Source of the DNA: Acidobacteriota bacterium
Lineage (GTDB): Bacteria > Acidobacteriota > Holophagae > Holophagales > Holophagaceae
DNA length: 64,000 nucleotides
Direction: 5' to 3'
NCBI GenBank assembly: GCA_021794095.1
Contig: JAJYRN010000007.1
Location: forward strand, 1 to 64,000
Part shown: one piece after another, positions 46,153 through 61,991 of the stretch
Position numbering within the stretch: the first letter of the stretch is position 1
How the letters are laid out: each line of letters starts with the position of its first letter
Made by a program: the position numbers and the translations under genes
The notes under the pieces: model-generated
Database searches by the model: none
What the model was told of the DNA's origin: nothing
Seen by the model: the letters and a program-made list of their open reading frames with translations, nothing else

Positions 46153-46216
46153 GTACTGTCCATGCCGATTTTTGATGCGCTGATTGTGGACATTTCGAGT
46201 TTTCACGGAGCTGGTG

Positions 46217-48541
46217 ATGGTTCGCAATGATCCTTCCGGAAGTCCGAGCGGCGATCGGGTGAATCCTCCGATCCCGCAAGGTGCATCCACCGCGCCGGGT
46301 GGAAGATTCTGGGCCAAGGACCTTCGGGGAGGCCGACTGACGGTCTGGGGACTGGGTCTTATCCTGGTCTTTCTGCTGGTCTTGGCCTACAGCAACACGT
46401 TGCACAGTCCTTTTACCTACGACGACTACGTTGATGTGCTGGGCAACACCTCGGTACGGCATCTGTGGCCCCTGTGGGAAGTCTTCCGGGTACCCGGCCA
46501 GGGCTACATGACCCGACCCATCGCCAACCTGAGCTTTGCGCTCGATTATGCGCTCCATGGTCCCAAGCCCTTCTGGTTCCACCTTACCAACCTGCTCATC
46601 CACCTGGGGGCCGCCCTGGCCCTGCTGGGGTCGGTGCGTCGCACGTTGCTGCGGCCAGTCTTCCAGGGCCGGTTCGCGGATACGGCCTCCACCCTGGCAC
46701 TGGTCATCGCGGGCCTCTGGGCCCTCCATCCCGTAGATACCGAGGCGGTGTCCTACATCACCCAGCGTTATGAGTCCCTGGCCTCGTTGTTCATGCTGCT
46801 CACCCTGTACGCCCTGGTGCGCAGCGAGGGATCGTCCCATCGCCGTATGTGGGAGGGTCTCACGGTCCTGGCTTGCCTGGGGGCCCTGGGCAGCAAGGAG
46901 ATCGCCGTCTCCCTGCCCCTGCTTACTCTGCTCTACGACCGTACCTTCTTGGCGGGCAGTTTCCGTGGGGCTTGGCGAGCCCGTCGCCCCCTCTACCTGG
47001 CTCTACTGGTGGATTGGGTTCTCTTCGCCTACGTCCAGACCCATGCCATTCCCCGGCCCTTTGCAGGCTTTGGGCTCCGTACCCCCTGGTGGCACTATGC
47101 CCTCAACCAGCCGGATGTCATCCTCCATTACTTGCGGCTGGCCATCTGGCCCCATCCCTTGGTTTTCGACTACTTCTGGCAGCCGGTTATGATCTGGCGC
47201 CACCTGGCACCGGGGCTCCTGTGTATTGGGGCCCTCCTGGGCTTCACCCTATGGGCCTTGGTGAAGCAGCCGCTTCTGGCCTTCCTTCCCGCATGCTTCT
47301 TCGCGATCCTCGCCCCCACGTCCAGTTTCATGCCCATCCTGGACCTGGCGGATGAATACCGGATGTACTTGCCCCTAGCGACTGTTCTGGCGGCCCTAGT
47401 GCTGGGGCTCCACGCCCTGTGGGCCCGGACCCATGCGGCCCGGCCTCTCACCCGGCAAAGCCTCCGGATCGCCTTCGGGGCTGGGCTTGCCCTGGTTGTC
47501 ACCCTTCTGGGAACCCTGACCTACCTGCGCAATGAAGATTACCGGGATCCCATGGACCTTTGGCATAGCGTTACCCTTGCCGAGCCAAAGAATCCCCGAG
47601 GACACAATAATTACGCATTCCATTTGGCGCAAGCGGGCTATACCCAGCAGGCTATGCAGGAATACGCCAATGCTATAGCTTTGGCTCCGGGCATGGCGAT
47701 GTTCCACAGTAACTATGGGCTTACGCTGGCCAACCTCGGTCACTATCAGAAGGCTTTGGAACAGTTGCGCATGGCTGTGAAGCTTGACCCCACTTCCACC
47801 TCATACGTGAATAATCTTGGGCAGGTACTCATTATGAAGGGCTCCATTGATAATGCAGCCATTTGCTTTAAAACCGCACTCCAGATGGATCCTCGGAACG
47901 ATCCGGCATACGGCGGGTTGGCTTCCGTCTTGCAAATGAAACACGAAGACGCCCAATCCCTTGCGGCCATAGCAAAGGCTATTGCTTTGGATCCCTATAA
48001 TCCGGCCTATCGGTGGCAAAAAAGCCAAATTCTTTTGGATCTTGGGTGTGCAAAGGATGCCCAAGCTGCATTTCGGGAAGCTGTGCGGTTGGATCCTAGT
48101 GCTGCCAGAGCGTCGAACTTGGCCTGGATCATGCATCAGCGCAACCAGGACACTGAGGCGATCTGGGCCCTCGAACAAGCCTTGAAAACCCGGCCAGGCG
48201 ATGCCAAGACTGAGATCCGCTTGGCGTGGATTCTCGCCACGACCCAGAATGCCTCCCTCCGCAATGCCCCGGAAGCCGTACACCTGGCCGGGGTTGTGAT
48301 TCGTTCCCAGGGCCTCCGTTCTCCGGAACTGCTGGATGTGCTGGCCGTGGCCCAGGCAGGGGCGGGCCAGTACCCGGCGGCCCAGGCCACGGTGCAGGAG
48401 GCCCTTGCGAAGGCGGCAGATCATCCCCCTGCCTATCAGGCCATGCTCAAGGCCCAGTTGGCCGCGTTCCAGCAGGGCCAACCCTGGCTGGATCGTCCAG
48501 CGACCAGCACCATGGCCCCTAAAAATCCTAAAGGCGCCTAG
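46217..48541 (+). CDS. GT-C-like membrane protein with TPR tail
   Basis: A 774-residue protein from the ATG at 46217, with GGAG eight bases upstream. About ten membrane segments occupy residues 40-440. The first periplasmic loop holds FTYDDYVDV, the acidic motif of GT-C glycosyltransferases. The second half (450-750) is TPR repeats (NNYAFHLAQAGYTQQAMQEY; NYGLTLANLGHYQKALEQL). Such TMTC-like proteins transfer sugars from lipid carriers to proteins, and its position after pilA suggests O-glycosylation of pilin. The TPR half is more AT-rich than the rest. The next 100 bases hold a small hairpin (TGCGATAACGCA) and no gene. Confidence 0.78.
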   Translation: MVRNDPSGSPSGDRVNPPIPQGASTAPGGRFWAKDLRGGRLTVWGLGLILVFLLVLAYSNTLHSPFTYDDYVDVLGNTSVRHLWPLWEVFRVPGQGYMTRPIANLSFALDYALHGPKPFWFHLTNLLIHLGAALALLGSVRRTLLRPVFQGRFADTASTLALVIAGLWALHPVDTEAVSYITQRYESLASLFMLLTLYALVRSEGSSHRRMWEGLTVLACLGALGSKEIAVSLPLLTLLYDRTFLAGSFRGAWRARRPLYLALLVDWVLFAYVQTHAIPRPFAGFGLRTPWWHYALNQPDVILHYLRLAIWPHPLVFDYFWQPVMIWRHLAPGLLCIGALLGFTLWALVKQPLLAFLPACFFAILAPTSSFMPILDLADEYRMYLPLATVLAALVLGLHALWARTHAARPLTRQSLRIAFGAGLALVVTLLGTLTYLRNEDYRDPMDLWHSVTLAEPKNPRGHNNYAFHLAQAGYTQQAMQEYANAIALAPGMAMFHSNYGLTLANLGHYQKALEQLRMAVKLDPTSTSYVNNLGQVLIMKGSIDNAAICFKTALQMDPRNDPAYGGLASVLQMKHEDAQSLAAIAKAIALDPYNPAYRWQKSQILLDLGCAKDAQAAFREAVRLDPSAARASNLAWIMHQRNQDTEAIWALEQALKTRPGDAKTEIRLAWILATTQNASLRNAPEAVHLAGVVIRSQGLRSPELLDVLAVAQAGAGQYPAAQATVQEALAKAADHPPAYQAMLKAQLAAFQQGQPWLDRPATSTMAPKNPKGA

Positions 48542-48641: not shown

Positions 48642-49577
48642 TCATTCATCAAAATTAACCCGCTCCTGCTCCACGACTAGGGGGCGCTTCATGACCTGGG
48701 TATGGATGGTGGCTACGTATTCTCCCAGTAATCCGATAAAGAACAACTGCACGGAACTAAAGAAGAAAAGGCCTATTAGGATAGGAGCCATTCCGAATCC
48801 GAACCGGCTCCAGAAGATCAGTTTGAGGGCGAGGTAGGCGAAGGAGATGAGTAGGCTGAAGAGGGCCAGAGCAAATCCACCCATGGTCGCCAAGCGGATT
48901 GGAACCTTGGATTGGCTGGTGATGCCCAGCATGGCCATGTCGTACAGGGTGTAGAAATTGTTCTTCGTGATGCCCCGCTTGCGCTGGGGCTGGATGAAGG
49001 GGATCTCGACGGCCTCGAAGCCGATCTCGGCGATGATTCCCCGAAAATAGGGATAGGGATCATTCATGGCGCGGATGAGTTCGACCACGGACCGGTCGTA
49101 GAGTCCGAACCCGGTGAAATTCTGGATGACGCGCACGTCCGCGATCCGATAGAGCAGGCCGTAGTAGAACCGGCGAATCAGCCACATCGCAGTCGACTCG
49201 CGGCTCTGTTTCTTGACGGCCACAACGATACGGTGCCCTTCCTCCCAGGCTTGCAGGAAATCCCGGATCAGTTCGGGAGGATCCTGGAGGTCGGAGCACA
49301 TGTTGATCACGGCTTCGCCGCGCGCTTGCAGGAGGGCATGGTACGGGGAGCGGATCTGGCCGAAGTTCCGGGCATTGACGATCAGCTTCACCCGTTTGTC
49401 CGAGGCGGCCATGGCCTTGATCCGCTCGATCGTCCGATCCGTCGAGTGGTTGTCGATGAAGATCAATTCGTAACGATAATCCGGCAGCCCCGCGAAGACC
49501 GCATCGATCTGGGCCCGGAGGGGCTCGACATTCTCCTCTTCGTTGAAGCAAGGGGTGGTGATGCTGACCAGCTTCAT
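48642..49577 (-). CDS. GtrB-type family 2 glycosyltransferase
   Basis: A 311-residue GT2 protein. The N-terminal 230 residues hold the catalytic fold (TTPCFNEEENVEPL; FIDNHSTDRT; NMCSDLQDPPELI; KRGITKNNF, the RxxxxK/RG region). Two transmembrane helices lie near residues 232-260 and 268-295. Family members load a sugar onto polyprenyl phosphate at the inner membrane. It is the last gene of the 12-gene operon and a clear paralogue of the first gene (61041-61991). It follows the HAD gene by eight bases. Confidence 0.87.
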   Translation of the reverse strand: MKLVSITTPCFNEEENVEPLRAQIDAVFAGLPDYRYELIFIDNHSTDRTIERIKAMAASDKRVKLIVNARNFGQIRSPYHALLQARGEAVINMCSDLQDPPELIRDFLQAWEEGHRIVVAVKKQSRESTAMWLIRRFYYGLLYRIADVRVIQNFTGFGLYDRSVVELIRAMNDPYPYFRGIIAEIGFEAVEIPFIQPQRKRGITKNNFYTLYDMAMLGITSQSKVPIRLATMGGFALALFSLLISFAYLALKLIFWSRFGFGMAPILIGLFFFSSVQLFFIGLLGEYVATIHTQVMKRPLVVEQERVNFDE

Positions 49578-49585
49578 GGGGTTCC

Positions 49586-50269
49586 TCAGGCAGGGCGCAT
49601 TCCAGGGTAGCCGAGGAGTGGGACAAGGCCCCGCACCAGGGCGTCCAGTTCGGGCAGGCTCCGGATCCGCGCGGCGACGGGAATGGAAGGATCATCCACT
49701 CGTCCGTAACCATACTCCGCGAACACGAAGGGTATCCCGCTGGCGTAGGCCGCCCGCCCGTCGTCGGGACCGTCCCCGACCATGAGCTCACCCAGCCTCG
49801 CCCCGGATCGCCCGGCCACCCGCGCGAGCAGAACGGACTTCGAAGGCGCAGGAGGGTCCGTCTCGTCGAGCGTGTGGACTCCGGAGAATCGGGTATCCAG
49901 GCCCAAGGCGTGGAGAATGGCCAAGGCCGGCGCCAATCGCTTGTTGGTGACGACGCGCATCCGATGCCCCTGGCCGGCCCAGGCCTCGAGCGTCTGGACC
50001 ACGCCTGGATAGGGGCGCGTGGCGAGGCAGCCACGCCGGTCGTAGTGGGCCTTGAAGGCCGCCACAAGCCCATCCAGGAGGCCGGGATCCGCTGCGGCGG
50101 CCACCACCTGGAGCGTCTGCCGCAGGGGGGGGCCGATGAGGCCCCGGTCGAGAGCCACCGCAGGCTGGAGGCCGAAAGCCGCAAGGGCGGCCTCCAGGCT
50201 GGCGAGAATGCCGTCGGCCGAATCCACGAGGGTCCCGTCCAGATCGAAGTAGAGGTCCATCATGGCCAT
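49586..50269 (-). CDS. HAD-family phosphatase (Gph-like)
   Basis: A 227-residue HAD hydrolase with YFDLDGTLVDS (motif I, near residue 6), VVTNK (motif II), K in APSKSV (motif III) and MVGDGPDDG (motif IV). It resembles phosphoglycolate phosphatase. In this operon it probably removes phosphate from a sugar intermediate. I start at ATG 50269, with GAGGG upstream, seven bases after the FkbM stop. Confidence 0.85.
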   Translation of the reverse strand: MAMMDLYFDLDGTLVDSADGILASLEAALAAFGLQPAVALDRGLIGPPLRQTLQVVAAAADPGLLDGLVAAFKAHYDRRGCLATRPYPGVVQTLEAWAGQGHRMRVVTNKRLAPALAILHALGLDTRFSGVHTLDETDPPAPSKSVLLARVAGRSGARLGELMVGDGPDDGRAAYASGIPFVFAEYGYGRVDDPSIPVAARIRSLPELDALVRGLVPLLGYPGMRPA

Positions 50270-50276
50270 CGTTCCC

Positions 50277-51431
50277 TCAGCGTGTCCGCTCCCGGGGCAC
50301 GGCGTAGAGCACGACATCCAAGCCGAAGCGGTTGTGAGTCCTCAGATGGAAGCGATAGTCCTCGCAGCGATCCCGGATCAGGAGGGGCAACCCGAAGAGG
50401 TCGCCGGGATGGTGGTAGATGGCCACCGCCAGCACCGGCCGGTCCCTGGCCAAGGTATCGCGGGCCCCGGCCAGGGCGGGACGCTCCGAACCCTCCAGAT
50501 CCAGCTTGAGGAAGGTGATGGGGAGATCCCGCGGAAGGTCATCCACCGCCATGACCGGCACCGGCGTGCCGGTGGCCCCCACCGCGCTGAGATGGTCCCC
50601 CTGAGCCTGCAGATGGACGACGCCCGCACCCGCCCCCAGGGCGGCCTGGTAGGGGCGGATCCTTCCGGCCAGGTCGGCTGGCAGGCACGCCAGGAAGGTC
50701 CGGAGTGCCGCATGGCTGTTGGGATCCGGTTCGAAGGCGTGGACCCTCCCGAATGCCTCGCAGCGGGCGCGAAGGAAGGCCCGGAGGGTGTCGCCATCGA
50801 AGGCCCCTCCGTCTACCAGACACTCGTCATCCCGTAGCCGGACCAGGTCCGGACAGAAATACTGGTCTTCTGGTGTGCCGACGGGCAGCGCGTCCACATC
50901 GCGGATCATGCGCCAGCGCAGATGTCCCAAGAACTGCTGTCGGGATGCCTCGTCCTCGAAGAGGTCCAGGGTCTGGGCGAGGGCCGCCTGGTGCTCCCGG
51001 TAGAACGCGGGTGTGCCACATGGCCATCCGGATGTTTCGGGCCACTTCCTGAACAGGTCGGAGAAGGGACAGATCCTCCGTGCCCCCATTGCCGCAAGCC
51101 GTGCTTCCTCGCGGCCTAGCACGGCCGCCTCTGCCTGAAAAGCGACCACGAACACCGCCTCCTCCCCGTACTGGCGGGCCGCTGCCCTGGGGGAGAACAC
51201 GGGGATTCCCCCGAGGACCTGCCCCCACCGCGTGGGATCGTTGTCGGCGAAACAAAGCACCTTCACGGGCTTGTCCAGGAGGGCCGCATGGACCGCCCGC
51301 CCCATTTGCCCAGCTCCGAGGAGGACCAGTGGACGCCGCCCCCCCTCCGTGGCCGCGTCGTAGGCCGCTCCCGCAGCGGAGATGGATGCTTCCGCCCCCA
51401 TTTCCATGAGGCGATCAAACGCCGCCCTCAC
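50277..51431 (-). CDS. FkbM-family methyltransferase with Rossmann N-terminus
   Basis: A 384-residue protein from a GTG that overlaps the upstream stop by four bases. The N-terminal 110 residues are a Rossmann region (RRPLVLLGAGQMGRAVHAAL; FADNDPTRWGQVLGGIPV), like the end domain of sugar-modifying enzymes. The rest is an FkbM methyltransferase (DECLVDGGAFDGDTLRAFL; VHAFEPDPNSH; TFLKLDLEGSE). It probably O-methylates a glycan sugar. Confidence 0.85.
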   Translation of the reverse strand: MRAAFDRLMEMGAEASISAAGAAYDAATEGGRRPLVLLGAGQMGRAVHAALLDKPVKVLCFADNDPTRWGQVLGGIPVFSPRAAARQYGEEAVFVVAFQAEAAVLGREEARLAAMGARRICPFSDLFRKWPETSGWPCGTPAFYREHQAALAQTLDLFEDEASRQQFLGHLRWRMIRDVDALPVGTPEDQYFCPDLVRLRDDECLVDGGAFDGDTLRAFLRARCEAFGRVHAFEPDPNSHAALRTFLACLPADLAGRIRPYQAALGAGAGVVHLQAQGDHLSAVGATGTPVPVMAVDDLPRDLPITFLKLDLEGSERPALAGARDTLARDRPVLAVAIYHHPGDLFGLPLLIRDRCEDYRFHLRTHNRFGLDVVLYAVPRERTR

Positions 51432-52573
51432 GGGACCACCTCGAGGGCATTCCCGCGCAGCACCGCCACCGTTCCGCAAAACGCCTGCTCCTCTCGCAGG
51501 ATCCGCACGACCTCCCCCGAATAGCCGGCGGCCATGACGATCATGGCATCCACCGGGTCCTCGGCCAGCGCCTCGGGACCGCGAATGGGCGTATGGACCA
51601 CGGGGGTGAAGCGTCCCTGCTTGAAGGGGGCGGAGTCAATCACATACCGGACCTCCGCGGCATCGGCCAAGGCAAGCAGGGTGAGGGCCTGGTGGCTGGC
51701 ACCCCAGACCGCGAGGCCCCGGCCGCTCGTCCCATGAGTCCGGCAGAAGGCCTTCAACGTCGCCACGAGCTGCCCCCTGGCCTGATCCCAGGTTCGGGCC
51801 TCGAAAGGTCTGCGCCGGCGGACCAGGGCCGCAAGGTCGTAGCCGTCCCACACCCGGCTGCAGGAGATCACGTCGAACCCGGATCGCTCCAGTAGCTGTC
51901 GGAGGGTCGATTCCGTGAAATAGGACAGGTGGTCGGGAATGAAATCGTAGAAGCGGTCGCACTCGAGCATGTGTTCGAAGCTGGGCACCTCCACCAGGCC
52001 CGGGGCCCCGGGTACCAGGTTCCCGCAGAGGCCCCGGAGCAGGTCCACGGGATCGGGGGCATGTTCCAGGAAGTTGATGGAGGCGAAGGCTTCGAAGGGC
52101 CCCTCCACCAGTCGCGTTCCCGCCTCCAAGTATCCCTGGTGGATCGTCCTCCCAAGGGCCCGCCCACGGGCCACGGCGGATGCACCGGCTTCCAGCCCCA
52201 TGGGTTCGGCACCGGCTTCCTTGAGAAGGCCGAGGAAGTAGCCCTCCCCACAGCCCACCTCCAGGATCCGCCGTCGATGCAGGTCGAAGCCTGCCACGAA
52301 CTGCCTCGCCTGCTCACGGCGGAAGGCCACCATCCGAGCCGACCCTCCAGCAGCGGTGATGACCTCCCGGAAGTAGGGGACCGGTGCTCCCGCCAGCTGG
52401 ACCAGGCCACAGGCGTGGCATTGGAAGACCCGGAGGTCAGCGCCGCTGTCCCCCGCCAGATCGGTCGCACCGGGAAGTCCCTGGGCGGAGCGTGGGACGT
52501 TCTCCAGACGAAAAGCTGGCTCGTCCGGGAGGAGCGCGCCGCAGAGCTTGCAGGAGGAGGAAGGCATGGCCAT
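51428..52573 (-). CDS. Class I C-methyltransferase for NDP-sugars
   Basis: A 381-residue protein with the three-part layout of sugar C-methyltransferases of the TylC3 type. There is an N-terminal zinc site (CKLCG and CHACG), a central SAM domain (RRILEVGCGEGYFLGLL near residue 110), and a C-terminal Methyltransf_14 domain (LAVWGASHQALTLL; YVIDSAPFKQGRFTP). Relatives methylate C-3 of a 4-keto deoxysugar. It lies 11 bases after the ThDP gene and is coupled to the FkbM gene. Together with rfbFGH it points to a branched, methylated deoxysugar. Confidence 0.85.
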   Translation of the reverse strand: MAMPSSSCKLCGALLPDEPAFRLENVPRSAQGLPGATDLAGDSGADLRVFQCHACGLVQLAGAPVPYFREVITAAGGSARMVAFRREQARQFVAGFDLHRRRILEVGCGEGYFLGLLKEAGAEPMGLEAGASAVARGRALGRTIHQGYLEAGTRLVEGPFEAFASINFLEHAPDPVDLLRGLCGNLVPGAPGLVEVPSFEHMLECDRFYDFIPDHLSYFTESTLRQLLERSGFDVISCSRVWDGYDLAALVRRRRPFEARTWDQARGQLVATLKAFCRTHGTSGRGLAVWGASHQALTLLALADAAEVRYVIDSAPFKQGRFTPVVHTPIRGPEALAEDPVDAMIVMAAGYSGEVVRILREEQAFCGTVAVLRGNALEVVP

Positions 52574-52584: not shown

Positions 52585-54381
52585 TCAGAGGTCGGGGACG
52601 TACATGTTGGCCCGGAACTCCTCCCGATCCAGGAAGGGGAAGAGGTCCTCCATGGGTTTGGTGGCCATGGAACCGTCGGGGCGCTGGAACGAGACCGCGC
52701 GGGGGATCGTGGCCTGGTCCCGGGAAATGCGCACCACGCAGACGAGGGGCCCGGGCGCCTCGAGCAGGTTCCGGAGCTTTGGACCCTGCAGGTCCGCATT
52801 GTCATCGAGCCGGGCGGTAGGGATTCCGTAGGCCCGCGCCACCGCCTCAGTGTCCGGCAGGGTCAGCCCGCTGCTGGCCTCGCTGGCCACCAAATGACCG
52901 CCGAAGTGCGCTTTCTGGGAAGCGCGGATGGACCCGTAGCCCTGGTTGTCGAGCACGAAGAACTTGATGGGAAGGTCCAGGCGCCGGATGGTTTCGAGTT
53001 CCTGGAGGTTCATGTGGAAGCCGCCGTCCCCATCCAGGCAGACAGTCCGTTTCCCGCCGCTGGCGACGCAGGCCCCCAGCGCCGCCGGAGGCCCGAATCC
53101 CATGGGGCCGAGTCCCTGGCTGTTCAGGATCCGAAGCCCCTGGCGGACCCGCCAAGCCTGGTGGGTGATCTCGCTGCAAGCGCCGCTGCTGCCCGGGACC
53201 AGCAGATCATCCTCCCCGAGTAGATCCGACAACGCGTCCACTAGGGCGTAGTTGTTCACCGCCCCTGAGGTTTCCCGGTATTCCGGGAGGCAGACGGGGT
53301 ACTGCTGCTTCCACGCCTGGGTCTTGGCCACCCAGCCGCTGAAATCCGGCAAGCGGACGCCCTCCAACCTTTGGAGCAGCGCCTCGAGAAAAGCGCCGGC
53401 ATCGACCGCCACGTTCAATGCCGCTCCCATCCCGAGTTTCTCCAACTCATGGGGATCCACGTCCACCAGGATTTTGCGGGCCCCTCGGGCGAAGTATTCG
53501 GGCATGTAGGCGATCTGGCCGTGGTCCAGCCTGGCCCCGAGACAAAGGATCCAATCGCTGTTCTGCTGTGTGAAATTGGCCCCCCGCTGGCCGGAAGCCC
53601 CAGGACGGCCGGCGAAACGCGGGTGGTCCTCGGGAAGGAAGTCCGCGGCCTTCCAGGTGGTGAGAACCGGGATCGGGAGGCGTTTCAGGAGTTCTCGGAA
53701 GGCCGGAAGGGCCCCGGCTAAGCGGATGCCGTTGCCGGCGAGAAGGACTGGCCGCTCCGCCTCCAGGAGCATGCGAACCGCCTGGTCCACGGACGCCTCG
53801 AGGTTGGCCTCCCCCCAGGTTTCCGGCACGGTTGGCTGGAATCCTTCCAAGGCGGCGGGATCGATTTGGGATGCCTGGACATCAAGCGGAAGGTCGATCC
53901 AAACCGGCCCCGGACGCCCCGACCGCGCCAGATGGAGCGCTTCCTCTAGGTGCCAACGGATCCGGGCGGGATCCACGACCGTCACCGCGTACTTCGTGAT
54001 GGGCTTCACCATGGAGACGATGTTGATCTCCTGGAATCCCATCTGGCGAACCCCGCGCCCGCGGGCCAGATCGGCCCGTTTCACCTGCCCGGAGAGGAAC
54101 AGGCAGGGCGTCGAATCCAGCCAGGCAGCCGCGACACCGGTGAGGGCGTTTGTGCCCCCGGGCCCGGTGGTGACGAGGGCGACGCCCAAGTTGCCCGTGA
54201 ACTGCCCGTAGGCATCCGCCGCTACGGCAGCCCCCTGCTCGTGGAGGTTGCAGACGAACTGGAGCCGGGGATGGCGCCCCAGGGAATCCACCAGGTGCAT
54301 ACATCCCCCGCCGGGGAGCAGGAACACATCCCGGACTCCGGCTTCCGCGACGAAGTCCATGACGAAATCCGAGAGCTTCAT
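52585..54381 (-). CDS. ThDP-dependent enzyme of the acetolactate synthase fold
   Basis: A 598-residue ThDP enzyme. The catalytic glutamate is E48 in CNLHEQGAAVAADAY. The central domain is FAD/nucleotide-like, and the C-terminal ThDP site reads CLDGDGGFHMNLQEL ... VLDNQGYGS. Inside polysaccharide clusters such enzymes (YerE and relatives) add a two-carbon unit from pyruvate to a CDP-4-keto-dideoxysugar. The upstream rfbF, rfbG and rfbH genes make just such a substrate. AGGA lies just before the ATG. It starts eight bases after the NeuB-cupin gene. True acetolactate synthase is unlikely because there is no small subunit and the context is glycan synthesis. Confidence 0.85.
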   Translation of the reverse strand: MKLSDFVMDFVAEAGVRDVFLLPGGGCMHLVDSLGRHPRLQFVCNLHEQGAAVAADAYGQFTGNLGVALVTTGPGGTNALTGVAAAWLDSTPCLFLSGQVKRADLARGRGVRQMGFQEINIVSMVKPITKYAVTVVDPARIRWHLEEALHLARSGRPGPVWIDLPLDVQASQIDPAALEGFQPTVPETWGEANLEASVDQAVRMLLEAERPVLLAGNGIRLAGALPAFRELLKRLPIPVLTTWKAADFLPEDHPRFAGRPGASGQRGANFTQQNSDWILCLGARLDHGQIAYMPEYFARGARKILVDVDPHELEKLGMGAALNVAVDAGAFLEALLQRLEGVRLPDFSGWVAKTQAWKQQYPVCLPEYRETSGAVNNYALVDALSDLLGEDDLLVPGSSGACSEITHQAWRVRQGLRILNSQGLGPMGFGPPAALGACVASGGKRTVCLDGDGGFHMNLQELETIRRLDLPIKFFVLDNQGYGSIRASQKAHFGGHLVASEASSGLTLPDTEAVARAYGIPTARLDDNADLQGPKLRNLLEAPGPLVCVVRISRDQATIPRAVSFQRPDGSMATKPMEDLFPFLDREEFRANMYVPDL

Positions 54382-54389: not shown

Positions 54390-55904
54390 TCAGCCGAAGA
54401 AGTGCGTTACGTAGGTCTTCCGGTCCGGGTTGGCGCCGATCGTGGGATCCAGGTAGTAGGAATCGTCCTTGTAGTGGGTCGAGGAGATCTCCTCGATGAC
54501 GCACCCCTGATCGGACCAGAAGGCGTGCCGTACCTCCCGCTCCACCGTCAGGATGTCCCCGGGGCGGCAGGTCCGCACCTCCCCATCAAGGCTGACCTGC
54601 ATGCTCCCGTGGAGGATATGGAAGGTCTCCTCCTTCAGCTTGTGGAACTGCTCGGGATGCCGCTGCCCGGGGAGGAGCACGATGAGCTTTTTGCAGTACG
54701 CCCGATTGACCACGTTGAGGATAGTGGCGCCGTACGTCTCGAACTGGTCCAGGCCGTAGTGGTGGCTGATCTCGACGGTCGCCTGGGTACTCACCACCGT
54801 CCGGGCCTCATCCAGAAGGCCCCGCACCCTGGCCACGATGTCGTTGATCCGCAGGCGGTGGTCGGTCGTCTGGACCTGGCGGAGGAAGACGGGACCACTG
54901 GCCGGAAGATCCTCCAGGGCCCGGAACTCGAGATACTTGCCCAGGTCATTGGCGGTGAGTTGGCCGGGTTCGGTGGGCATGGCCAGGAGGAAGGTCGAGG
55001 GATCGAGTTTTTCGCCTTTCGTCACCGGGGCCTTCACGAAGACCCCCCGCTGGAGCGACCGGAGGCTGTCCAGTTCCTCCTTCGCCGAGGCATGTCGGCC
55101 ATCTCCGGCCCCGCAGGCCACCAGGGCCTCCCGGGCCGCCTCCAGCCACCGCCGCATTTGCTGCGGGGACGCGGAGTAGGCATTCAGTGCGTACTGATCG
55201 GTGGGAAGGCCCACGTGCTTCTCAAAGACCCTGGCCCCCTTTGCCACGGCCAAAGGGATGTTCTGGAGGGTGTCGGGATCCTCGTGGGCAGACCAGCCGA
55301 CCTCGTGCCCCGGATACCGGTTTCTGAGAAGGTCGATCTGGTTCATCTGGAGCCGCTCGGCCGGGGTTGGGTACTCTCCGACGCAGTGGAGCAGGGTCAG
55401 AGAACGCTCGCGGTGCTCGAAGAAGCTCACGATCCGATCGAGCAGTTCCAGGCTGGCGCCGGCCGTGGAGGCGATCACGGGCAGGTGAGACTGGGCGAGC
55501 CGTTCCAGGAGGGGCCAATCCCCCATAGAGCAACTAGCGATCTTCAGGCGGTCGTAGCGATGGGTTTCGATCAGGTCCACTGAGGCCTCGTCAAAGGGCG
55601 TGCAGATGGCGAGGAACCCCCGCGCCGACATTCCTTCGCGCAGGGCGAGGAAGTCCTCTTGGCTCAGCCGTGTCTCCTGGAATCGCTTGATGTACTTAAT
55701 GTCCATCCGAGTCTGAAAATTGGGGTGGATGAACGTGTCGAGATCCCGGTACTGGAGTTTGAACCCGAAGGCGAAGGTTTCCCGAAAGGGCTCGGCCACC
55801 TCCGTGAAGGCATCGAGAATCCGCATCCCATGGGTAAGGCTGCCCATGTGGTTGTTGGCCATTTCGAGTACGACGAGTGGCTTAGAGGCGAAGGAAGGGG
55901 TCAC
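54390..55904 (-). CDS. NeuB-like synthase with SAF and cupin domains
   Basis: A 504-residue fusion from a GTG with AAAGGA upstream. Residues 1-280 match the NeuB (sialic acid synthase) barrel (VVLEMANNHMGSLTHGMRIL; KIASCSMGDWPLLERLA; LLHCVGEYPTPAERL; VGWSAHEDP). An SAF domain follows (RGVFVKAPVTKGEKLDPSTF). The last 110 residues form a cupin (QFHKLKEETFHILHGSMQV; CRPGDILTVEREVRHAF). NeuB enzymes condense PEP with an amino-sugar. No neuA, neuC or CMP-transferase gene is in the window, so the product may not be a classical sialic acid. Confidence 0.85.
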   Translation of the reverse strand: MTPSFASKPLVVLEMANNHMGSLTHGMRILDAFTEVAEPFRETFAFGFKLQYRDLDTFIHPNFQTRMDIKYIKRFQETRLSQEDFLALREGMSARGFLAICTPFDEASVDLIETHRYDRLKIASCSMGDWPLLERLAQSHLPVIASTAGASLELLDRIVSFFEHRERSLTLLHCVGEYPTPAERLQMNQIDLLRNRYPGHEVGWSAHEDPDTLQNIPLAVAKGARVFEKHVGLPTDQYALNAYSASPQQMRRWLEAAREALVACGAGDGRHASAKEELDSLRSLQRGVFVKAPVTKGEKLDPSTFLLAMPTEPGQLTANDLGKYLEFRALEDLPASGPVFLRQVQTTDHRLRINDIVARVRGLLDEARTVVSTQATVEISHHYGLDQFETYGATILNVVNRAYCKKLIVLLPGQRHPEQFHKLKEETFHILHGSMQVSLDGEVRTCRPGDILTVEREVRHAFWSDQGCVIEEISSTHYKDDSYYLDPTIGANPDRKTYVTHFFG

Positions 55905-55926: not shown

Positions 55927-56970
55927 CTAGGCGAGATTCCATTGGAGCGTACGTTGCACTGCGGCCACGAGCGGAACAGACACTTCGAGGCCGAGTTCGT
56001 TCCGGGCACGCGACACATCCGGCACGTACCGATGCGCTGGACGGCCCGGCTCGGGAAGAGCCGCGATCCGGACAGGCTGGCCCGCGATTCGCCCCACGAG
56101 GCGGGCGAAACCCGCGATGTCCATGACCTCGTCAGACCCTACGTTGTAGAGCGGTCCGGCCCGCTCGTCGAGGAGGATGGTCCAGAGCCACCAAGCCAGG
56201 TCCTTGCCATAAAGCCAAGATCGGATGGCAGTCCCGTCCCCCTGTACACCGATGGGACGTCCTGCCAGGGCGTCCCCCAGAAAGCTGGCGGCGGCCTGAT
56301 GGGTTCCAAGGGGTTGGTGGGGTCCGAGGAAGGCGAAGCAACGCGCGATCCGCATGACCATGCCCCCATCCCGACCCATTAGGCCGCAGAGATACTCGGC
56401 AAGACGCTTGCCAAGACCGTAGGCGGCGTCCCGGGAAAGGGGGTCAGGAGCTCCTCCGAACGTTTCCGGGAAGGCCACCAGATCCGGGGGTTGTGGTCCG
56501 TAGACCGCCCCTGAACTCAGGAGCAGGGCGTGGCGCACACCGGCTTTGGAGGCCACATCGAGGGTCCTGCGCGTCCCCTCGATGATTGTCTCGATCATGA
56601 GCCGGGGGGATTCGAGATTTAGAGCAGCGCTGGGCGTGGTGGCTCCAAGAACTAGGTGCGTGAAGGAGCCAGGAGGGGCTTCGAACGTACGCACATCTCC
56701 CTCTAAGAGCTGGACGGATGGATGTCCCGCTACATGAGGCATTCGGAGCCGGTAGTCCTCGCAGGAGCGGGTCAGGAGCACGACCTCCACGGACAGCCCG
56801 CGGTGCTTCACGGCGGCCAGCATCCCCTCCACCATCCAGGCGCCAAAGAATCCCGTGCAGCCGGTCATCAAGATCCGTCCACCGTCCAAATGGCGCCATA
56901 ACCCGCCCACACGCTGCTGGAGGTCTTCCACATCTTGCGCTGGAAGCTGGCGGATAAGGGGGCCGTTCAT
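55927..56970 (-). CDS. NAD-dependent epimerase/dehydratase (SDR)
   Basis: A 347-residue extended SDR with [17 protein letters not shown] (nucleotide site, near residue 35), SSGAVYGPQ (catalytic Ser) and [11 protein letters not shown] (YxxxK). It is probably the ketoreductase or epimerase that finishes the CDP-sugar, an RfbJ/RfbS- or YerF-like role. Its start overlaps the rfbH stop by four bases (ATGA), so it belongs to the same pathway. Confidence 0.85.
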
Positions 56971-58283
56971 GTCAATTGGCCTTTAATCCCCGTGGCCAGT
57001 TGGTCTGCCAGATAATCCAGCATCGGTTCCGTGAGTCCCGGGTACACCCCCACCCAGAAGGTGCGGTTCATGATGGCGTCACTGACGGCCAGTTCCCCGG
57101 CCACGCGCCGGGGGGTGTCCTGGAAGGCGGGCTGGCGCAGCAGGTTGCCGCCGAAAAGCAGGCGGGTGCCGATCTTCCGGGCGTCGAGGTGGCGGATGAG
57201 GTCGTTGCGGGTGAGGGGGGCCTCCTCCCGCAGCGTGAGGGGGAAGCCGAACCAGCTGGGATCGGAATGGGGCGTGGGCTCGGGCAGGATCAGGAAGGGC
57301 TCCAGCGGCCGGAGCCGGGCGAGCAGGTACTGGAAGTTCGCCCGCCGCTGGGCGATGAACCCCTCCAGCTTGTCGAGCTGACTGAGGCCCACGGCGGCCT
57401 GCATATCGGTGAGCTTGAGGTTGTAGCCCAGGTGGCTGTAGGTGTACTTGTGGTCGTAGCCGTGGGGCAGGTCGCCCAGCTGCCAGTCGAACCGTTTGTG
57501 GCAGGTGTTGTCCATGCCGGGTTCGCACCAGCAGTCGCGGCCCCAGTCGCGGAAGGATTCGACGAGTTTCTTGAGCTTCGGATCATCCGTGAGCACGGCC
57601 CCGCCTTCGCCCATGGTGAGGTGGTGGGCGGGGTAGAAGCTCACGGTGGCCAGATCTCCGAAGGTGCCCACCTTCCGGCCGCGGTAGGTGGCGCCCACCG
57701 CATCGCAGCAATCCTCGATGACCCAGAGATGGTGTTTCTCGGCCAGGGCCATGACCGTATCCAGGTCGAAGGGATTGCCCAGGGTGTGGGCCAGCAGGAG
57801 GGCGCGGGTGCGGGGGCCGATGGCGCCTTCGAGCTGATCCGCGGCCACGTTGTAGCTGGGGATGTGGGCATCCACGAATACCGGCACCAGGCCGTTCTGA
57901 AGGATGGGCGCCACGGTGGTGGGGAAGCCTGCGGCGCAGGTGAGCACCTCGTCGCCGGGCTGGAGGCGGCGATCGCCCAACTGGGGCGAGGTAAGGGCGG
58001 TGAGGGCCAGCAGATTGGCGCTGGAGCCGGAGTTCACCAGGGAACAGTGGCGCAGGCCCCACCAGGCCGCGAAGCGCGGCTCGAAGGCCCGGGCGAAGCG
58101 CCCGGTGGTGAGCCAGAAATCCAGCGAGGCATCCACCAGGGAGGCCACATCGGCGCCATCGAAGACCTTGCCGCTCACGGGCACGGGCGTGACGCCGGGC
58201 ACGAAGGGGCGCTCCGTCCACTGTTCCGCCGCGAAGGCGCGCACCTGCTCGAGGATCTGCGTGCGCAGGGCATCAGCGCCCAT
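56967..58283 (-). CDS. rfbH: CDP-6-deoxy-D-xylo-4-hexulose 3-dehydrase
   Basis: A 438-residue B6/iron-sulfur enzyme (DdhC, E1) that removes the C-3 hydroxyl of CDP-4-keto-6-deoxyglucose. The usual PLP lysine is replaced by His in [14 protein letters not shown], the hallmark of this family. The cluster cysteines are present in EDCCDAVG and [12 protein letters not shown]. The ATG at 58283 overlaps the rfbG stop. The E3 reductase (DdhD) that supplies electrons is not in the window. Confidence 0.94.
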
Positions 58284-59256
58284 GGGCTGTTCCCAGGAAG
58301 GCGCGGTACCACGGGAGGGTCTTGGCGAGGCCGGCGGCGAGGTCATGGGTGGGCTTCCAGCCCAGCCGCGCGCGGGCCTTGGCGCTGTCCAGGTACTGAT
58401 CCTGGATCTCGGCGCGGGCCGTCCCCTCCACGATGGGCTGGAGATCCTCCCGGCCCATGGCTTTCAGCACGGCCCGGGTGATGGCCAGCACGGACACGCG
58501 GCTTTCGGGGCTGAAATTGAAGGCCTCGCAGCGGATGCCCGCTTCGTGGCTGCGGGCGGCCAGAGCCAGGTAGGCCTCCACCACATCCTCCACGTAGATG
58601 TAGTCGCGAACGTTGCTGCCATCGGAGCGCAGGGTGGGTGGCCGATCCTCCAGGGCGGCCCGAATGGTGCCCGGCACGATGCGGCTCCAGTTGAGATCGC
58701 CCCCGCCGTAGATGTTTCCGCAGCGGGCGATGGCCACCGGCAGGCCGTAGGTGTGCGCGTAGGTGTGGGCGAGCAGGTCGGTGCAGCTCTTGGAGACATC
58801 GTAGGGATGGCGCCCCCGGAGCGGCATGTCCTCGGTGTAGGGCAGCAGGTCCGAATCCCCGTAGGCCTTGTCGCTGGAGGCGACCACGACGTTCCGCACC
58901 AGGTCGCGGTGGATGCGGCAGGCTTCCAGCAGGTTGTAGGTGCCGCGGATGTTGGATTCGAAGGTGAGCAGCGGGCTCCGGAGCGCCACGCCGACGATGG
59001 CCTGGGCGCCCAGGTGGAACACGGCATCCACCTCGTGTTCGCTGAGGGCGCGCTCCAGGCTGGCGTAGTCCTCCAGGGCGCCCTGCACGACGCGGGCCCG
59101 CTGGATGGTGCCGCTGCGCACCAGTTCGCTGCGGGGATCCCAGTCGCGGACCAGGACCACCAGCTCGGCGCCTTCGGCCACCAGCCGCTGGCACAGCCAC
59201 GACCCCACGATGCCTGTGGCGCCGGTCACCAGAACGGTGCGTCCCCGCCAGCTCAT
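58273..59256 (-). CDS. rfbG: CDP-glucose 4,6-dehydratase
   Basis: A 327-residue extended SDR. It has [18 protein letters not shown], the catalytic SSDKAYGD and YDVSK, and the family end [18 protein letters not shown]. It turns CDP-glucose into CDP-4-keto-6-deoxyglucose. The start codon overlaps the rfbF stop by four bases. Order and coupling with rfbF and rfbH support the CDP-sugar assignment over dTDP relatives. Confidence 0.93.
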
Positions 59257-60026
59257 GGGGCCACCGTCCAGGGCGCCTGACCCGATTCCCAGAGCCGTTC
59301 GAGCATGTGCTTCTCCCGCAGGGTGTCCATGGGCTGCCAGAACCCTTCGTGCCGGTAGGCGTGGAGCTGGCCTTCGGCGGCGAGGCGCTCCAGGGGCTCC
59401 AGCTCCCAGAGCGTGGTGTCGCCCGCGATGTAGTCCAGCACCCGGCGGTTCAGCACGAAGAAGCCGCCGTTGATCCAGCCTTCGCCTGCCTGGGGCTTTT
59501 CCGAAAACCGCGTGACCGTATCGCCTTCGAGGGCCAGGCCGCCGAAGCGGGCCGGGGGGCGCACGGCGGTGACGGTGGCGAGCTTGCCGTGCTGCCGGTG
59601 GAAGGCCAGGAGGGCGTTCAGATCCACATCCGCCAGGCCATCACCGTAGGTGAGGAAGAAGGTGTCCTCTTCGCCAAGCCAGGCGCCTAGGCGCTTGATG
59701 CGGCCGCCGGTCTGCGTCTGGAGGCCCGTGTCCACGAGGTGCACCTGCCAGGGCACGGTCTCGGCGGCCTGGATGCGGTGCTGCCCCGTGGCCAGATCCA
59801 CGGTGAGGCTGGCGTTCAGGGCATGGAAATTCAGGAAGTACTCCTTGATGGCCTCGCCCTTGTAGCCCAGGGCCACGACGAACTCGTGGAAGCCCTGGGC
59901 GCTGTACAGGCCCATCAGGTGCCAGAGCAGGGGCTTGCCGCCCACTTCCACCATGGGCTTGGGCCGCACGGCGGTCTCCTCCGACAGCCGGGTGCCCATG
60001 CCGCCAGCCAGGATGAGGGTCTTCAC
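59253..60026 (-). CDS. rfbF: Glucose-1-phosphate cytidylyltransferase
   Basis: A 257-residue nucleotidyltransferase: TLILAGGMGTRLSEETAVRP at the start, KPMVEVGGKPLLWHLM, and GDGLADVDLNALL. It makes CDP-glucose from CTP and glucose-1-phosphate. The GTG has GGAGG five bases upstream and overlaps the flippase-like gene's stop by four bases. It opens the CDP-dideoxysugar pathway in the operon. Confidence 0.95.
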   Translation of the reverse strand: MKTLILAGGMGTRLSEETAVRPKPMVEVGGKPLLWHLMGLYSAQGFHEFVVALGYKGEAIKEYFLNFHALNASLTVDLATGQHRIQAAETVPWQVHLVDTGLQTQTGGRIKRLGAWLGEEDTFFLTYGDGLADVDLNALLAFHRQHGKLATVTAVRPPARFGGLALEGDTVTRFSEKPQAGEGWINGGFFVLNRRVLDYIAGDTTLWELEPLERLAAEGQLHAYRHEGFWQPMDTLREKHMLERLWESGQAPWTVAP

Positions 60027-61039
60027 GGGGCCTCCGGGGGATGGGGAGAATCTAGCACCTTGGCGCCCCGAAAGAGCCGGAGGGGGGTGAGGCCGCTGCC
60101 ATGGATGGCCGCCAGGCCCAGGAGAATCAGGGCCGCGAAATGGGTCGCTTCCCCGGCGAGGCTGACCGCCAGGGCCTTCTCGGTTCCGATGCCGAAGGGG
60201 GCCAGGGCCAGGATGGTGGCGGCCTGATGGGAGCCAAAGCCCCCGGGCAGGAGGGGCAGGCCGAAGGCGAGCATGACGAAGAAGGCCAGCCTCAAAGGGG
60301 CGGCGGCGGGGAGCCCTTGGGCAAAGGGGAAGGCCCGCAGGGCGCACCCCGCAGCGGTGACATCCACCGCGAGGATGCAGGCCTGGAGGAGGACGAGGCC
60401 CGGCGCGAGGCCGGGCCTGCGCAGGACGGCAGCCTGTCCATGGGCCTCGTCGAAGCGTTCGATCCAGGCATGTCGCCCAGGATGGTGTGAGCTCCAGCGC
60501 AACAGCCAGGCGCGGAGGCTGTCCCCGGAAACCAGGAGAAGGATGAGCAGGGCGAGGAGCATGGCGGCTCCGAGCGACAGCAGGAGCAGAGGCCCCGCAC
60601 GGAGACCCTGGAGCAGACCATGGCCAGCCACGCTTCCGGCGAGGGCCAGGACGGTGGCGACGTCGAACAGCCGATCCATGGTGAGGGCCGTGCCTGCCCG
60701 GACGAGGGAGAGGCCCGTCTGGCGGTTCATGGCCGCGACTTTCACCACTTCGCCGCCGCCCATGGGCAGGAAGAGGCTGCTGAAATACCCGAGGCACACG
60801 GATCGCCAGATCCCAGGAAAGGGAGCGGCCCTGCCCAGCACCAGCCACAGCCGGAACGCCCTCATGGAGACGCCCAGGATGGCCAGCAGCAGTGCGGCGC
60901 CTAGCCAAGGCAAGCGTGTGCTTGCGAGCAGATCCAGGATGCGGATCCAGGACACTTGGCGTCCGATCACCGCAAGGATCAGCAGCCCTGCCAGGCCCGC
61001 GATCCAAGGCCGCAGCGTCCTTCCCCACCCTCGCGCCAC
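60023..61039 (-). CDS. AglD/LPG-synthase-like membrane protein
   Basis: A 338-residue protein with about eight hydrophobic segments of the UPF0104/lysylphosphatidylglycerol-synthase membrane domain (CLGYFSSLFLPMGGGEVVKV; PLLPGGFGSHQAATIL). Members are often coded with GtrB-type transferases and may flip or present lipid-linked sugars. It starts with GTG, just after the preceding GT2 gene and behind GGAG. Confidence 0.82.
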   Translation of the reverse strand: MARGWGRTLRPWIAGLAGLLILAVIGRQVSWIRILDLLASTRLPWLGAALLLAILGVSMRAFRLWLVLGRAAPFPGIWRSVCLGYFSSLFLPMGGGEVVKVAAMNRQTGLSLVRAGTALTMDRLFDVATVLALAGSVAGHGLLQGLRAGPLLLLSLGAAMLLALLILLLVSGDSLRAWLLRWSSHHPGRHAWIERFDEAHGQAAVLRRPGLAPGLVLLQACILAVDVTAAGCALRAFPFAQGLPAAAPLRLAFFVMLAFGLPLLPGGFGSHQAATILALAPFGIGTEKALAVSLAGEATHFAALILLGLAAIHGSGLTPLRLFRGAKVLDSPHPPEAP

Positions 61040-61040: not shown

Positions 61041-61991
61041 TCAGCTCCGGTCGAAATTGATCTTTTCGCGAATCACCACGAAGGGTTTGCGGCGGACCTG
61101 GCCATGGATGGCGGCCACGTACTCGCCGATGATGCCGAGGAAGAGGAGCTGGATGCCTGCGAAGAAGAGGATCAGGACCACCACGGTGGTGGCGCCGGGA
61201 GCCTGGAAGTTCCAGTTGAGCAGCTTGATGAGGGCGTAGATGAAGGCGAGCAGCAGGCTGAGGCCGGAGAGGGCGAGGCCCAGGATCGTGGCAAGCCGGA
61301 TGGGCACCAGGCTGTAGCTGACGATGCTGTTGATGGCGGTATCCAGGTAGCGCCCAAAGTTGTAGGAGGAGATGCCGGCCCGTCGCTTCTGGCGCTCGTA
61401 GGGCTCGCGAACCCGCCGGAAGCCCACGGAGGCGATGACGCCCCGGATGTGGGGATTGAAGTCGTCCACCTTCAGCAACTCGTCCACCACCGCGCGGTCG
61501 TACAGTCCGAAGCCCGAGTGATCATCCACCATCTCCTCGCCCGACAGGCTGCGGACCATCCGGTAGTAGGCCTTGCGGGCGAGCCGGAGCAGAAGGTCAT
61601 CGGCCCGGTTGGTGTAGATGCCGAACACCACCTCCGCTCCCTGCTCCCACAGCTCGACAAAGCGGGGGATCTTGTCCGGGGGATCCTGGAGGTCGGACAG
61701 CACGGGGATCACCGCATCCCCCGTGGTGTGTTGCAAGAGGGTCAGCGAGTTCTTCTCGGCGCCCCAGTTGCGGGTGTAGGTGAGCACCTTCACCCGGGGA
61801 TCCTCCGCAGCGATCTCCCGCAGGATCGCGAGGGTCCGGTCGGTACTGCAGTTGTCGCCGAAGAGATGCTCGTAGTCGTAGCGGTCCGCGAGCCCCGCCA
61901 TGGCGGCTTTGACCTCCTCATGGCACCGGCGGACGTTGCCCTCCTCGTTGAAGGCAGGGCTGATGATGCTGATGCGGCGGCGGGAGGTCAT
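61041..61991 (-). CDS. GtrB-type family 2 glycosyltransferase
   Basis: A 316-residue GT2 protein with the same layout as the last gene of the operon: SPAFNEEGNVRRCH, GDNCSTDRT, VLSDLQDPPDKI, KRRAGISSYNF, and two C-terminal transmembrane helices (about 235-262 and 272-298), ending GEYVAAIHGQV. It probably transfers the first or a branching sugar to polyprenyl phosphate. It is the first gene of the 12-gene run, preceded by a good extended -10 box with a very short leader. Confidence 0.88.
   Translation of the reverse strand: MTSRRRISIISPAFNEEGNVRRCHEEVKAAMAGLADRYDYEHLFGDNCSTDRTLAILREIAAEDPRVKVLTYTRNWGAEKNSLTLLQHTTGDAVIPVLSDLQDPPDKIPRFVELWEQGAEVVFGIYTNRADDLLLRLARKAYYRMVRSLSGEEMVDDHSGFGLYDRAVVDELLKVDDFNPHIRGVIASVGFRRVREPYERQKRRAGISSYNFGRYLDTAINSIVSYSLVPIRLATILGLALSGLSLLLAFIYALIKLLNWNFQAPGATTVVVLILFFAGIQLLFLGIIGEYVAAIHGQVRRKPFVVIREKINFDRS

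Follow-up and report, generated by a model that had tools for sequence, protein, structure and literature searches.

What does a NeuB-type synthase make when it is fused to a cupin and encoded in a cluster that lacks other sialic-acid genes? The question is raised by a gene at positions 54390-55904 on the minus strand of a 64,000-nucleotide stretch of DNA from an Acidobacteriota bacterium (GCA_021794095.1, contig JAJYRN010000007.1), here called the window, which is part of a 157-kb contig in a 3.0-Mb genome (assembly 99.25% complete, 28 contigs). An original prediction had proposed that this NeuB-SAF-cupin protein, together with the CDP-sugar genes of its cluster, could build an unknown nonulosonic acid-like unit. 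We read the cluster as a branching pathway of the YerE type in which NeuB-cupin supplies the donor: with a probability of roughly 0.74, the fused protein makes the donor for a thiamine diphosphate (ThDP)-dependent sugar-branching enzyme, yielding a long 4-C-branched CDP-sugar and not a sialic acid.

The fused gene and the parts of its product lie in the window as follows.

54390..55904, minus strand: NeuB-SAF-cupin gene (504 aa from a GTG start at position 55904, uninterrupted by stops); proposed role, phosphoenolpyruvate (PEP)-dependent 3-deoxy-2-ulosonate synthase with a fused aldose-ketose isomerase-like domain
55089..55883, minus strand: TIM barrel, residues ~8-272 (VIA-align Z 39.2 with 3g8r, 30.8 with NeuB 2wqp, ~23 with 3-deoxy-manno-octulosonate 8-phosphate (KDO8P) synthase)
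54867..55067, minus strand: SAF/antifreeze-like region, residues ~280-346 (NeuB structures aligned through model residue 345)
54393..54791, minus strand: C-terminal cupin, residues ~372-504, with predicted metal-site positions Q419, H421, E426 and H460 (from fold and conservation)

The protein passes the Pfam cut-offs for both NeuB (PF03102; E = 4.2e-37, 128.3 bits, cut-off 22.1) and Cupin_2 (PF07883; E = 2.3e-8), in a scan of a longer 542-aa open reading frame (ORF) ending at the same stop; the Pfam, NCBIfam and PDB scans of window ORFs used versions 38-41 residues longer at the N terminus than the genes as placed. At an E-value limit of 0.001, Pfam gave no SAF (PF08666) hit in the window protein. 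However, residues 6-345 of its AlphaFold model align with NeuB structures that contain a SAF domain (most rows of the VIA-align list for the full model cover residues 6-272 alone), and Pfam finds SAF at residues 284-340 of a fused relative, L139 (L and G numbers denote loci and genomes, respectively). Thus, the NeuB-SAF-cupin fusion named in the original prediction is real. That prediction had also suggested a survey of such fusions in other clusters. A scan of 84,980 species, one genome per species, with a four-row alignment matched 213 relatives, and the best 80 of these all combine barrel, SAF and cupin (492-511 aa), so the fusion is no assembly artifact; these loci were ranked by the full fused query, which favors fused forms, and unfused ones are possible among the other 133.

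Across the window protein and its 80 relatives, E14, T102, K121, S124, S205, H207 and H230 of the barrel are identical in 81/81 rows. On a sequence alignment to which residue positions of Neisseria meningitidis NeuB were transferred by hand, these correspond to E25, T110, K129, S132, S213, H215 and H236, which we take to be PEP/metal residues. The equivalents of E134, N184 and D247, presumably the residues that hold the N-acetyl-sugar acceptor (N-acetylmannosamine, ManNAc), are S126 (Ser in 75/81 rows, Glu in 0/81), G/A176 (81/81) and N241 (81/81). Because the PEP/metal positions are invariant and the acceptor positions replaced, PEP condensation is likely, with a 3-deoxy-2-ulosonate-like compound as the likely product, and ManNAc is an unlikely acceptor, as judged from residue identities. 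The window protein shares the barrel, the SAF region and the PEP and metal residues with the NeuB/PseI/LegI nonulosonic acid synthases but differs from them in its altered acceptor positions, its fused cupin, the absence of NeuA and NeuC partners, and NCBIfam equivalog scores far below threshold (TIGR03569, 124.7 vs. a cut-off of 399.65 bits; TIGR03586, 109.9 vs. 340.25 bits). The closest solved structure, 3g8r from Chromobacterium violaceum (55% identity over the matched part, Z 39.2), is titled a putative 'spore coat polysaccharide biosynthesis protein E' and, unlike the window protein, was deposited as a 350-residue chain without a cupin.

The original prediction had found no neuA or neuC in the cluster and named a neuA/neuC set elsewhere in the genome as evidence that would overturn it. 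No such set was found in the whole genome, where the window gene is the single match to PF03102, KdsB is the single match to PF02348 (CTP_transf_3; TIGR00466 198.1 bits, cut-off 155.2), and the NeuC model TIGR03568 gave a below-cut-off match alone (68.1 vs. 235.9 bits). CTP_transf_3-like genes lie near 1/80 family loci (L047) compared to 8/16 control loci. These controls were 16 of 19 low-identity NeuB loci, three with and 13 without a ThDP match, and all eight cytidylyltransferases fall among the 13; four of the eight had also served to train the profile, and all eight were independently listed by Pfam. The absence of neuA is expected, because the glycosyl unit would already be CDP-activated.

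These results bear on the possibility that a nonulosonic-acid-like sugar itself enters the glycan after activation by a nucleotidyltransferase that has escaped recognition. The retained NeuB fold and PEP/metal residues, the CTP_transf_3-like genes near L047, and two divergent fused relatives without a ThDP gene (L138 and L139) would suit such a route. We nevertheless consider it highly improbable, because KdsB is the sole CTP_transf_3 protein of the genome, because the 1/80 frequency among relatives contrasts with 8/16 among controls, and because a ThDP enzyme is the regular partner of the fused protein. Thus, the linkage to CDP-sugar genes stands, an ulosonate-like product is likely, and there is no ordinary sialic-acid pathway; as an end product, however, the nonulosonic acid-like unit is probably wrong, since the coupled carboligase would consume the acid, which is probably not a building block of the glycan.

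The original prediction overlooked this carboligase, whose gene begins eight bases past the NeuB-cupin stop and has a relative in 75 of the 80 loci. Together with the genes for CDP-sugar synthesis, it is placed as follows.

52585..54381, minus strand: ThDP-dependent carboligase, 598 aa, with a GDG motif and three thiamine pyrophosphate (TPP) domains; best PDB sequence match 8rph (JanthE)
56967..58346, minus strand: RfbH, CDP-4-dehydro-6-deoxyglucose 3-dehydrase (NF011936 732 bits, cut-off 423)
58273..59256, minus strand: RfbG-like CDP-glucose 4,6-dehydratase, between RfbF and RfbH (top NCBIfam match TIGR02622, 194.9 bits, below the cut-off of 278.45)
59253..60026, minus strand: RfbF, glucose-1-phosphate cytidylyltransferase (TIGR02623 379.7 bits, cut-off 300.25)

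Against PDB sequences, the window ThDP enzyme matched 8rph at 418.7 bits and the runner-up at 284.2 bits. We based neighbor counts on tblastn of the window proteins against the 80 loci (E ≤1e-10), because the gene calls behind the neighbor clusters were crude (the caller recognised NeuB in 69/80 loci). By this measure, RfbF was matched in 57 loci, RfbG in 63 and RfbH in 63, with the RfbG matches, like those of the short-chain dehydrogenase/reductase (SDR) described below, being loose ones within the broad SDR superfamily. The ThDP gene was present in 55/55 loci that kept at least 5 kb of flank on both sides, a limit of our own choosing, and in 59/61, 62/64 and 69/72 loci at 4, 3 and 2 kb, respectively; bit cut-offs placed ThDP, RfbF, RfbG and RfbH together in 43 of the 55. 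The ThDP gene lies directly downstream of NeuB-cupin in 49/80 loci and at a spacing of 250-1100 bases in 20. NeuB genes do not generally have such a partner, since 13/16 control loci had no ThDP match.

Co-occurrence was also scored in 299 sampled Pseudomonadota genomes, of which 21 held a ThDP match at E ≤1e-95, 13 a NeuB match at E ≤1e-50, and 11 both. ThDP matches of at least 45% identity, a line drawn after the list was seen, were in NeuB-holding genomes in 10/10 cases, with the two genes adjacent in seven; omitting the center genome left 9/9 (counts 9/0/3/286, Fisher p 5e-15). G309 and G498 encode NeuB-cupin and gave no ThDP match at E 1e-95. A quick maximum-likelihood tree of 97 ThDP enzymes, midpoint-rooted for drawing and with long branches that make single placements unsure, contains one branch with support of 99 in the Shimodaira–Hasegawa-like approximate likelihood-ratio test (SH-aLRT) that holds 79 rows, all with a NeuB partner (75 of the cupin type, two of a cupin-less sister type and two of other types). 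Every NeuB-less row and JanthE fall on the other side of this branch, and labels change seven times on the tree compared to 18.5 times in shuffles. The tree leaves out the fragments L033 and L059 (<400 aa) and five ThDP-less loci; JanthE, whose neighbors were unseen, was labeled with the NeuB-less rows, and L106, L140, L141 and L142 were labeled cupin-NeuB, the ThDP gene and NeuB being on separate contigs in the last three.

Ten ThDP loci without NeuB were compared with the 80 NeuB-cupin loci. An aldolase of a type that could form a 2-oxo acid was found in 6/10 of the former and 0/80 of the latter (p 3e-7). L130, L133 and L135 encode a 4-hydroxy-2-oxovalerate aldolase over the NCBIfam cut-off and an acetaldehyde dehydrogenase relative (over the cut-off in L130, which was scanned; by tblastn in L133 and L135), with an additional HpaI-like aldolase in L133, and L127, L128 and L131 encode an HpcH/HpaI-type protein (barely over the Pfam cut-off in L127 and L128; by tblastn only in L131). 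The remaining four loci may be pyruvate users. According to a review, ErwE takes 4-hydroxy-2-oxo acids and not pyruvate, whereas YerE takes pyruvate (PMC12247030); by analogy, the aldolases of the NeuB-less clusters would fit donor use of the ErwE kind.

The use of pyruvate by YerE (PMC12247030) also allows a different interpretation, in which NeuB-cupin and the ThDP enzyme contribute to separate sugars of one glycan and the latter takes pyruvate as in yersiniose. It is common for adjacent genes of a glycan cluster to contribute to different sugars, and three of the ten Pseudomonadota genomes carry NeuB and ThDP on separate contigs. Such independence is very unlikely, however, in view of the 75/80 association, the adjacency of the genes, a haloacid dehalogenase (HAD)-superfamily gene between both in 18 loci, the replacement of NeuB by other 2-oxo-acid aldolases, the branch of 79 ThDP enzymes that are all NeuB-partnered, and the occurrence of the family in many phyla.

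NeuBs of other types also accompany the ThDP enzyme. In the genus of the window organism, L121:5636-12042 carries RfbF-RfbG-RfbH-NeuB-KdsC-like-ThDP in one run, with a NeuB 27% identical to that of the window and a KdsC-like phosphatase scoring 106.8 vs. a cut-off of 106.95 bits with TIGR01670; L115 has NeuB followed by ThDP; and in L110:6139-10815 the ThDP gene is directly followed by an ordinary NeuB, by NeuC (over cut-off) and by a gene that resembles NeuD by eye. The 16.9 kb of L110 yielded no CTP_transf_3-like gene, and the ThDP enzyme there might decarboxylate a true nonulosonic acid. Cupin-less sister NeuBs lie by or near a ThDP gene in L124, L125, L129 and the mycobacterial loci L104 and L105.

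ThDP-dependent branching at C4 is familiar from YerE, ErwE and JanthE, with yersiniose and erwiniose as products. The window shares with these systems a homologous ThDP enzyme beside RfbF, an RfbG-like protein and RfbH, and the same predicted acceptor, a CDP-3,6-dideoxy-4-ketohexose. The predicted donor differs, being a PEP-derived 3-deoxy-2-ulosonate from NeuB-cupin, whereas YerE uses pyruvate and ErwE a 4-hydroxy-2-oxo acid. The window enzyme has a GDG motif where PMC12188165 gives CDG for JanthE (8rph), whose physiological substrates are described there as not known.

A longer branch occurs in caryophyllose, a 3,6-dideoxy-4-C-(1,3,4,5-tetrahydroxyhexyl)hexose whose side chain is deoxy at its second carbon, according to the structure quoted in PMC5706390. 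That paper also ties MMAR_2331 of Mycobacterium marinum to caryophyllose synthesis or transfer and reports that mutants of MMAR_2331, 2332 and 2333 all build up glycolipid without caryophyllose (PMC5706390). MMAR_2332 is a YerE-like ThDP enzyme (PMC12247030), and MMAR_2333 is a glycosyltransferase (PMC4403928). In L104 and L105, NeuB, ThDP, a family 2 glycosyltransferase (GT2) and RfbF are on one strand and RfbH and RfbG on the other; the NeuB is the sister type without a cupin (342 aa in L104, at 9687-10715), 38-39% identical to that of the window. Because this gene order matches MMAR_2331-2332-2333, MMAR_2331 should be a cupin-less NeuB-type member, and by synteny the caryophyllose locus would share with L104 and L105 a run of a NeuB-family gene, a ThDP gene, GT2 and RfbF/H/G. 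Structurally, caryophyllose can be read as a seven-carbon 3-deoxy-2-ulosonate (its last carbon a methyl) minus CO2, added to the C4 ketone and reduced, with the second carbon of the chain corresponding to the deoxy C3 of the acid. Separately, a placement of L104 beside lipooligosaccharide genes was not proved: an MmpL gene lies ~14 kb off (3,507,680-3,510,469), yet the genome has 47 MmpL matches.

The window genes form a tight minus-strand run of 12, from 61991 to 48642, in the order GT2, membrane protein of the lysylphosphatidylglycerol (LPG)-synthase type, RfbF, RfbG, RfbH, SDR, NeuB-SAF-cupin, ThDP enzyme, C-methyltransferase-like protein, FkbM methyltransferase, HAD phosphatase and GT2, with four-base overlaps at the junctions at 60023, 59253 and 56967. 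The genes other than those given above are as follows.

61041..61991, minus strand: GT2, first gene of the run (PF00535 94.2 bits)
60023..61039, minus strand: LPG-synthase-type membrane protein (PF03706; tblastn match in 1/80 loci)
55927..56970, minus strand: extended SDR, proposed to act on the branched sugar as a ketoreductase or an epimerase (PF01370; no NCBIfam model over cut-off)
51428..52573, minus strand: C-methyltransferase-like protein (PF13489, PF08484; tblastn match in 42/80 loci, partly weak)
50277..51479, minus strand: FkbM-type methyltransferase, start uncertain as it overlaps the preceding gene (PF05050, TIGR01444; tblastn match in 14/80 loci)
49586..50317, minus strand: HAD phosphatase, proposed to dephosphorylate the ulosonate or a precursor (PF13419)
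48642..49577, minus strand: GT2 of the polyprenyl-phosphate glycosyltransferase type (PF00535; NF007986 105.8 bits, under cut-off)

The LPG-synthase-type gene is outside the conserved core, as it was matched in a single locus. On the other side of the run, beside the glycan operon, ORFs at 44868-45323 and 45352-46095 carry the pilin-like N-terminal motifs GFTLVELLLV and GFTLIELLLV, and a large ORF after them (46184-48541) resembles, by eye, a membrane protein containing tetratricopeptide repeats.

From the gene content, conservation, co-occurrence and folds that we observed, we infer substrates, a reaction order and a product. RfbF, RfbG and RfbH would make CDP-3,6-dideoxy-4-ketohexose, as is established for these families. 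Judging by its fold, the cupin would convert a ketose, perhaps phosphorylated, to an aldose, whose aldehyde, a short sugar, the NeuB barrel would condense with PEP to a 3-deoxy-2-ulosonate. The HAD phosphatase, where present, would strip a phosphate. The JanthE/YerE-like ThDP enzyme would then decarboxylate the 2-oxo acid and transfer the resulting acyl anion to the ketone at C4 of the CDP-sugar. A long 4-C-branch of the yersiniose/caryophyllose type would result, deoxy at its second carbon and with a length set by the aldehyde acceptor. Finally, the SDR and the methyltransferases would finish the sugar, and the GT2 of the polyprenyl-phosphate type would hand it to a surface glycan.

For the isomerase step, the cupin was modeled alone (AlphaFold, mean pLDDT 94.5, with a 58-row alignment of the window and 57/80 loci; the full-length alignment held the window and 40/80 loci). 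In a Foldseek search of the PDB with this model, ranks 1-6 are titled D-lyxose isomerase (2y0o, 7nzo, 7nzp and 7nzq; TM 0.80-0.82), ranks 7-10 are the Escherichia coli sugar isomerase Z5688 (3kmh, 3mpb; TM 0.56-0.77), and phosphomannose and L-ribose isomerases come after rank 10. By phmmer, 2y0o and 7nzo lead over both cupin motifs (3.4e-7), with a quercetin dioxygenase almost level. H421, K424, E426, H460, E471 and E472 are invariant in 81/81 rows. Thus, the cupin shares its fold and both motifs with the D-lyxose/D-mannose isomerases (2y0o, 7nzo) but is fused to a PEP-condensing barrel and, in most of the family, has Gln as its first metal ligand. On the simplest reading of the model, it would be an aldose-ketose isomerase that supplies the aldose of the barrel. 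A separate isomerase feeds Kdo synthesis in a comparable way.

Alternatively, NeuB and the ThDP enzyme might be paired as proposed while the cupin opens or tautomerises the ulosonate ring, as KdgF does, or has a structural or regulatory function. KdgF 5fq0 does appear among the fold matches, at rank 27; the mostly Gln first metal ligand, the near tie with quercetin dioxygenase, and the pairing of mycobacterial and other sister NeuBs with ThDP enzymes in the absence of any cupin would also be understandable in that case. Even so, the leading fold matches are D-lyxose, E. coli sugar, phosphomannose and L-ribose isomerases, 2y0o and 7nzo head the sequence matches over both motifs, and the invariance of H421, K424, E426, H460, E471 and E472 also speaks for isomerase function, making a non-isomerase role of the cupin rather doubtful, although clearly less so than either of the alternatives weighed above.

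The reading of NeuB-cupin as a donor-making enzyme also touches the HAD-superfamily genes of the family. A small one fills the gap of 250-1100 bases between NeuB and ThDP in 18/20 loci. The small gene, of the cluster of L017:11520-12113, occurs in 20 loci and begins 3-86 bases past NeuB-cupin in 19 of them. L017:11520-12113 itself gave no NCBIfam, PDB sequence or Pfam match, whereas Pfam NT5C, which we take to be a HAD-superfamily nucleotidase, matched 8/11 members scanned, mostly weakly and over the cut-off in one (L049). Motifs seen by eye and these weak matches would make the small NT5C-like protein a HAD-superfamily member and a putative phosphatase. Relatives of the window-type HAD (PF13419) occur in 28/80 loci and the small type in 20 others; the two share 0 loci and together cover 48/80. 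That two HAD types are each found near NeuB-cupin and never together points to removal of a phosphate between the NeuB and ThDP steps.

Several observations weigh against the donor-making reading. The ThDP gene is 1.5-7.3 kb away from NeuB-cupin in six of the 80 loci and was not found in L076 (flanks of 10 kb upstream and 4.5 kb downstream), L079 (10 and 4.1 kb), L075 (2.2 and 4.2 kb), L021 (5.4 and 1.5 kb) or L081 (1.8 and 2.5 kb); L021 and L075 extend to the ends of their contigs, and RfbH comes immediately after NeuB in L079. Nor was a ThDP match found beside the divergent NeuB-cupins L138:7836-10021 (48% identity) and L139:1589-3741 (42%), in 14.6 and 12.7 kb, respectively, where a HAD phosphatase adjoins the fused gene and the same acid possibly has another use. 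In Pseudomonadota, NeuB and ThDP are on different contigs in 3/10 genomes, in G381 away from a contig end, and ThDP enzymes of 34-44% identity show no association with NeuB (1/11, p 0.37), the single NeuB being of the sister type without a cupin and lying 41 bases away from its ThDP match. Outside the 79-row branch of the ThDP tree are the cupin-NeuB loci L034, L047 and L062 as well as L110, L124, L125 and L129. The sister-type NeuBs do without a cupin; at the first metal position of the cupin, 65/81 rows have Gln and 16/81 have His, the other three positions (H421, E426 and H460) being invariant, as against H, H, E and H in what we take to be the full metal site of D-lyxose isomerase. The proposed link to M. 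marinum is drawn from synteny with the mycobacterial loci L104 and L105, and the SDR, methyltransferases and glycosyltransferases are assigned to family level alone.

Two of the ThDP-less loci, both from Magnetococcales (L076:9977-13532 and L081:1787-5356), have a NeuB-cupin without the usual ThDP and Rfb neighbors, facing a radical-SAM-like gene (by eye). Radical SAM-type genes are also near NeuB-cupin in 29/80 loci (type of L023:13404-14519), and a B12-binding radical SAM type is near it in 15/80, with one member of each scanned; such genes perhaps modify the branched sugar later.

The 80 fused relatives are spread over Acidobacteria, proteobacteria, Nitrospirae, Bacteroidales, Chloroflexi, Elusimicrobia, Omnitrophota, Spirochaetota, mycobacteria and others, with two archaeal records (L079, Methanoperedens, and L084) and a relative from the genus of the window organism at 93% identity. 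Another relative, L024, is from Pseudomonas capeferrum WCS358. NeuB matches occurred in 5/198 mycobacterial genomes sampled, three of the cupin type and two of the sister type; M. szulgai (L085) and M. angelicum (L082) have the cupin-fused NeuB with ThDP, RfbF, RfbG and RfbH. NeuB-cupin was not found on plasmids, where, among the 40 of 85 matches listed, none covers 80% of the query and all are below 60% identity, or in phages, where ten matches were cupin-only or distant barrels. We recognised no described NeuB-cupin fusion or NeuB-ThDP link in a literature search whose coverage excluded most subscription papers, and we do not claim that none has been published.

When a NeuB homologue is encoded without neuA, it can readily be mistaken for a sialic-acid or spore-coat gene, as the title of 3g8r illustrates. 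If the donor-making reading is true, the fused relatives (213 matched) would flag clusters for branched sugars, the type of donor would be predictable from the partner gene, and ThDP enzymes that accept large polyhydroxy donors would be usable for making tertiary alcohols. Caryophyllose, a glycolipid sugar of M. marinum, would gain a candidate enzyme for its missing donor step. More broadly, and only tentatively, NeuB-type enzymes may have a second widespread role as interchangeable donor modules for ThDP-dependent branching, with NeuB-SAF-cupin as a bifunctional form, branched sugars of at least 10 carbons as products in many phyla, and L110 perhaps representing a cluster that consumes a true nonulosonic acid.

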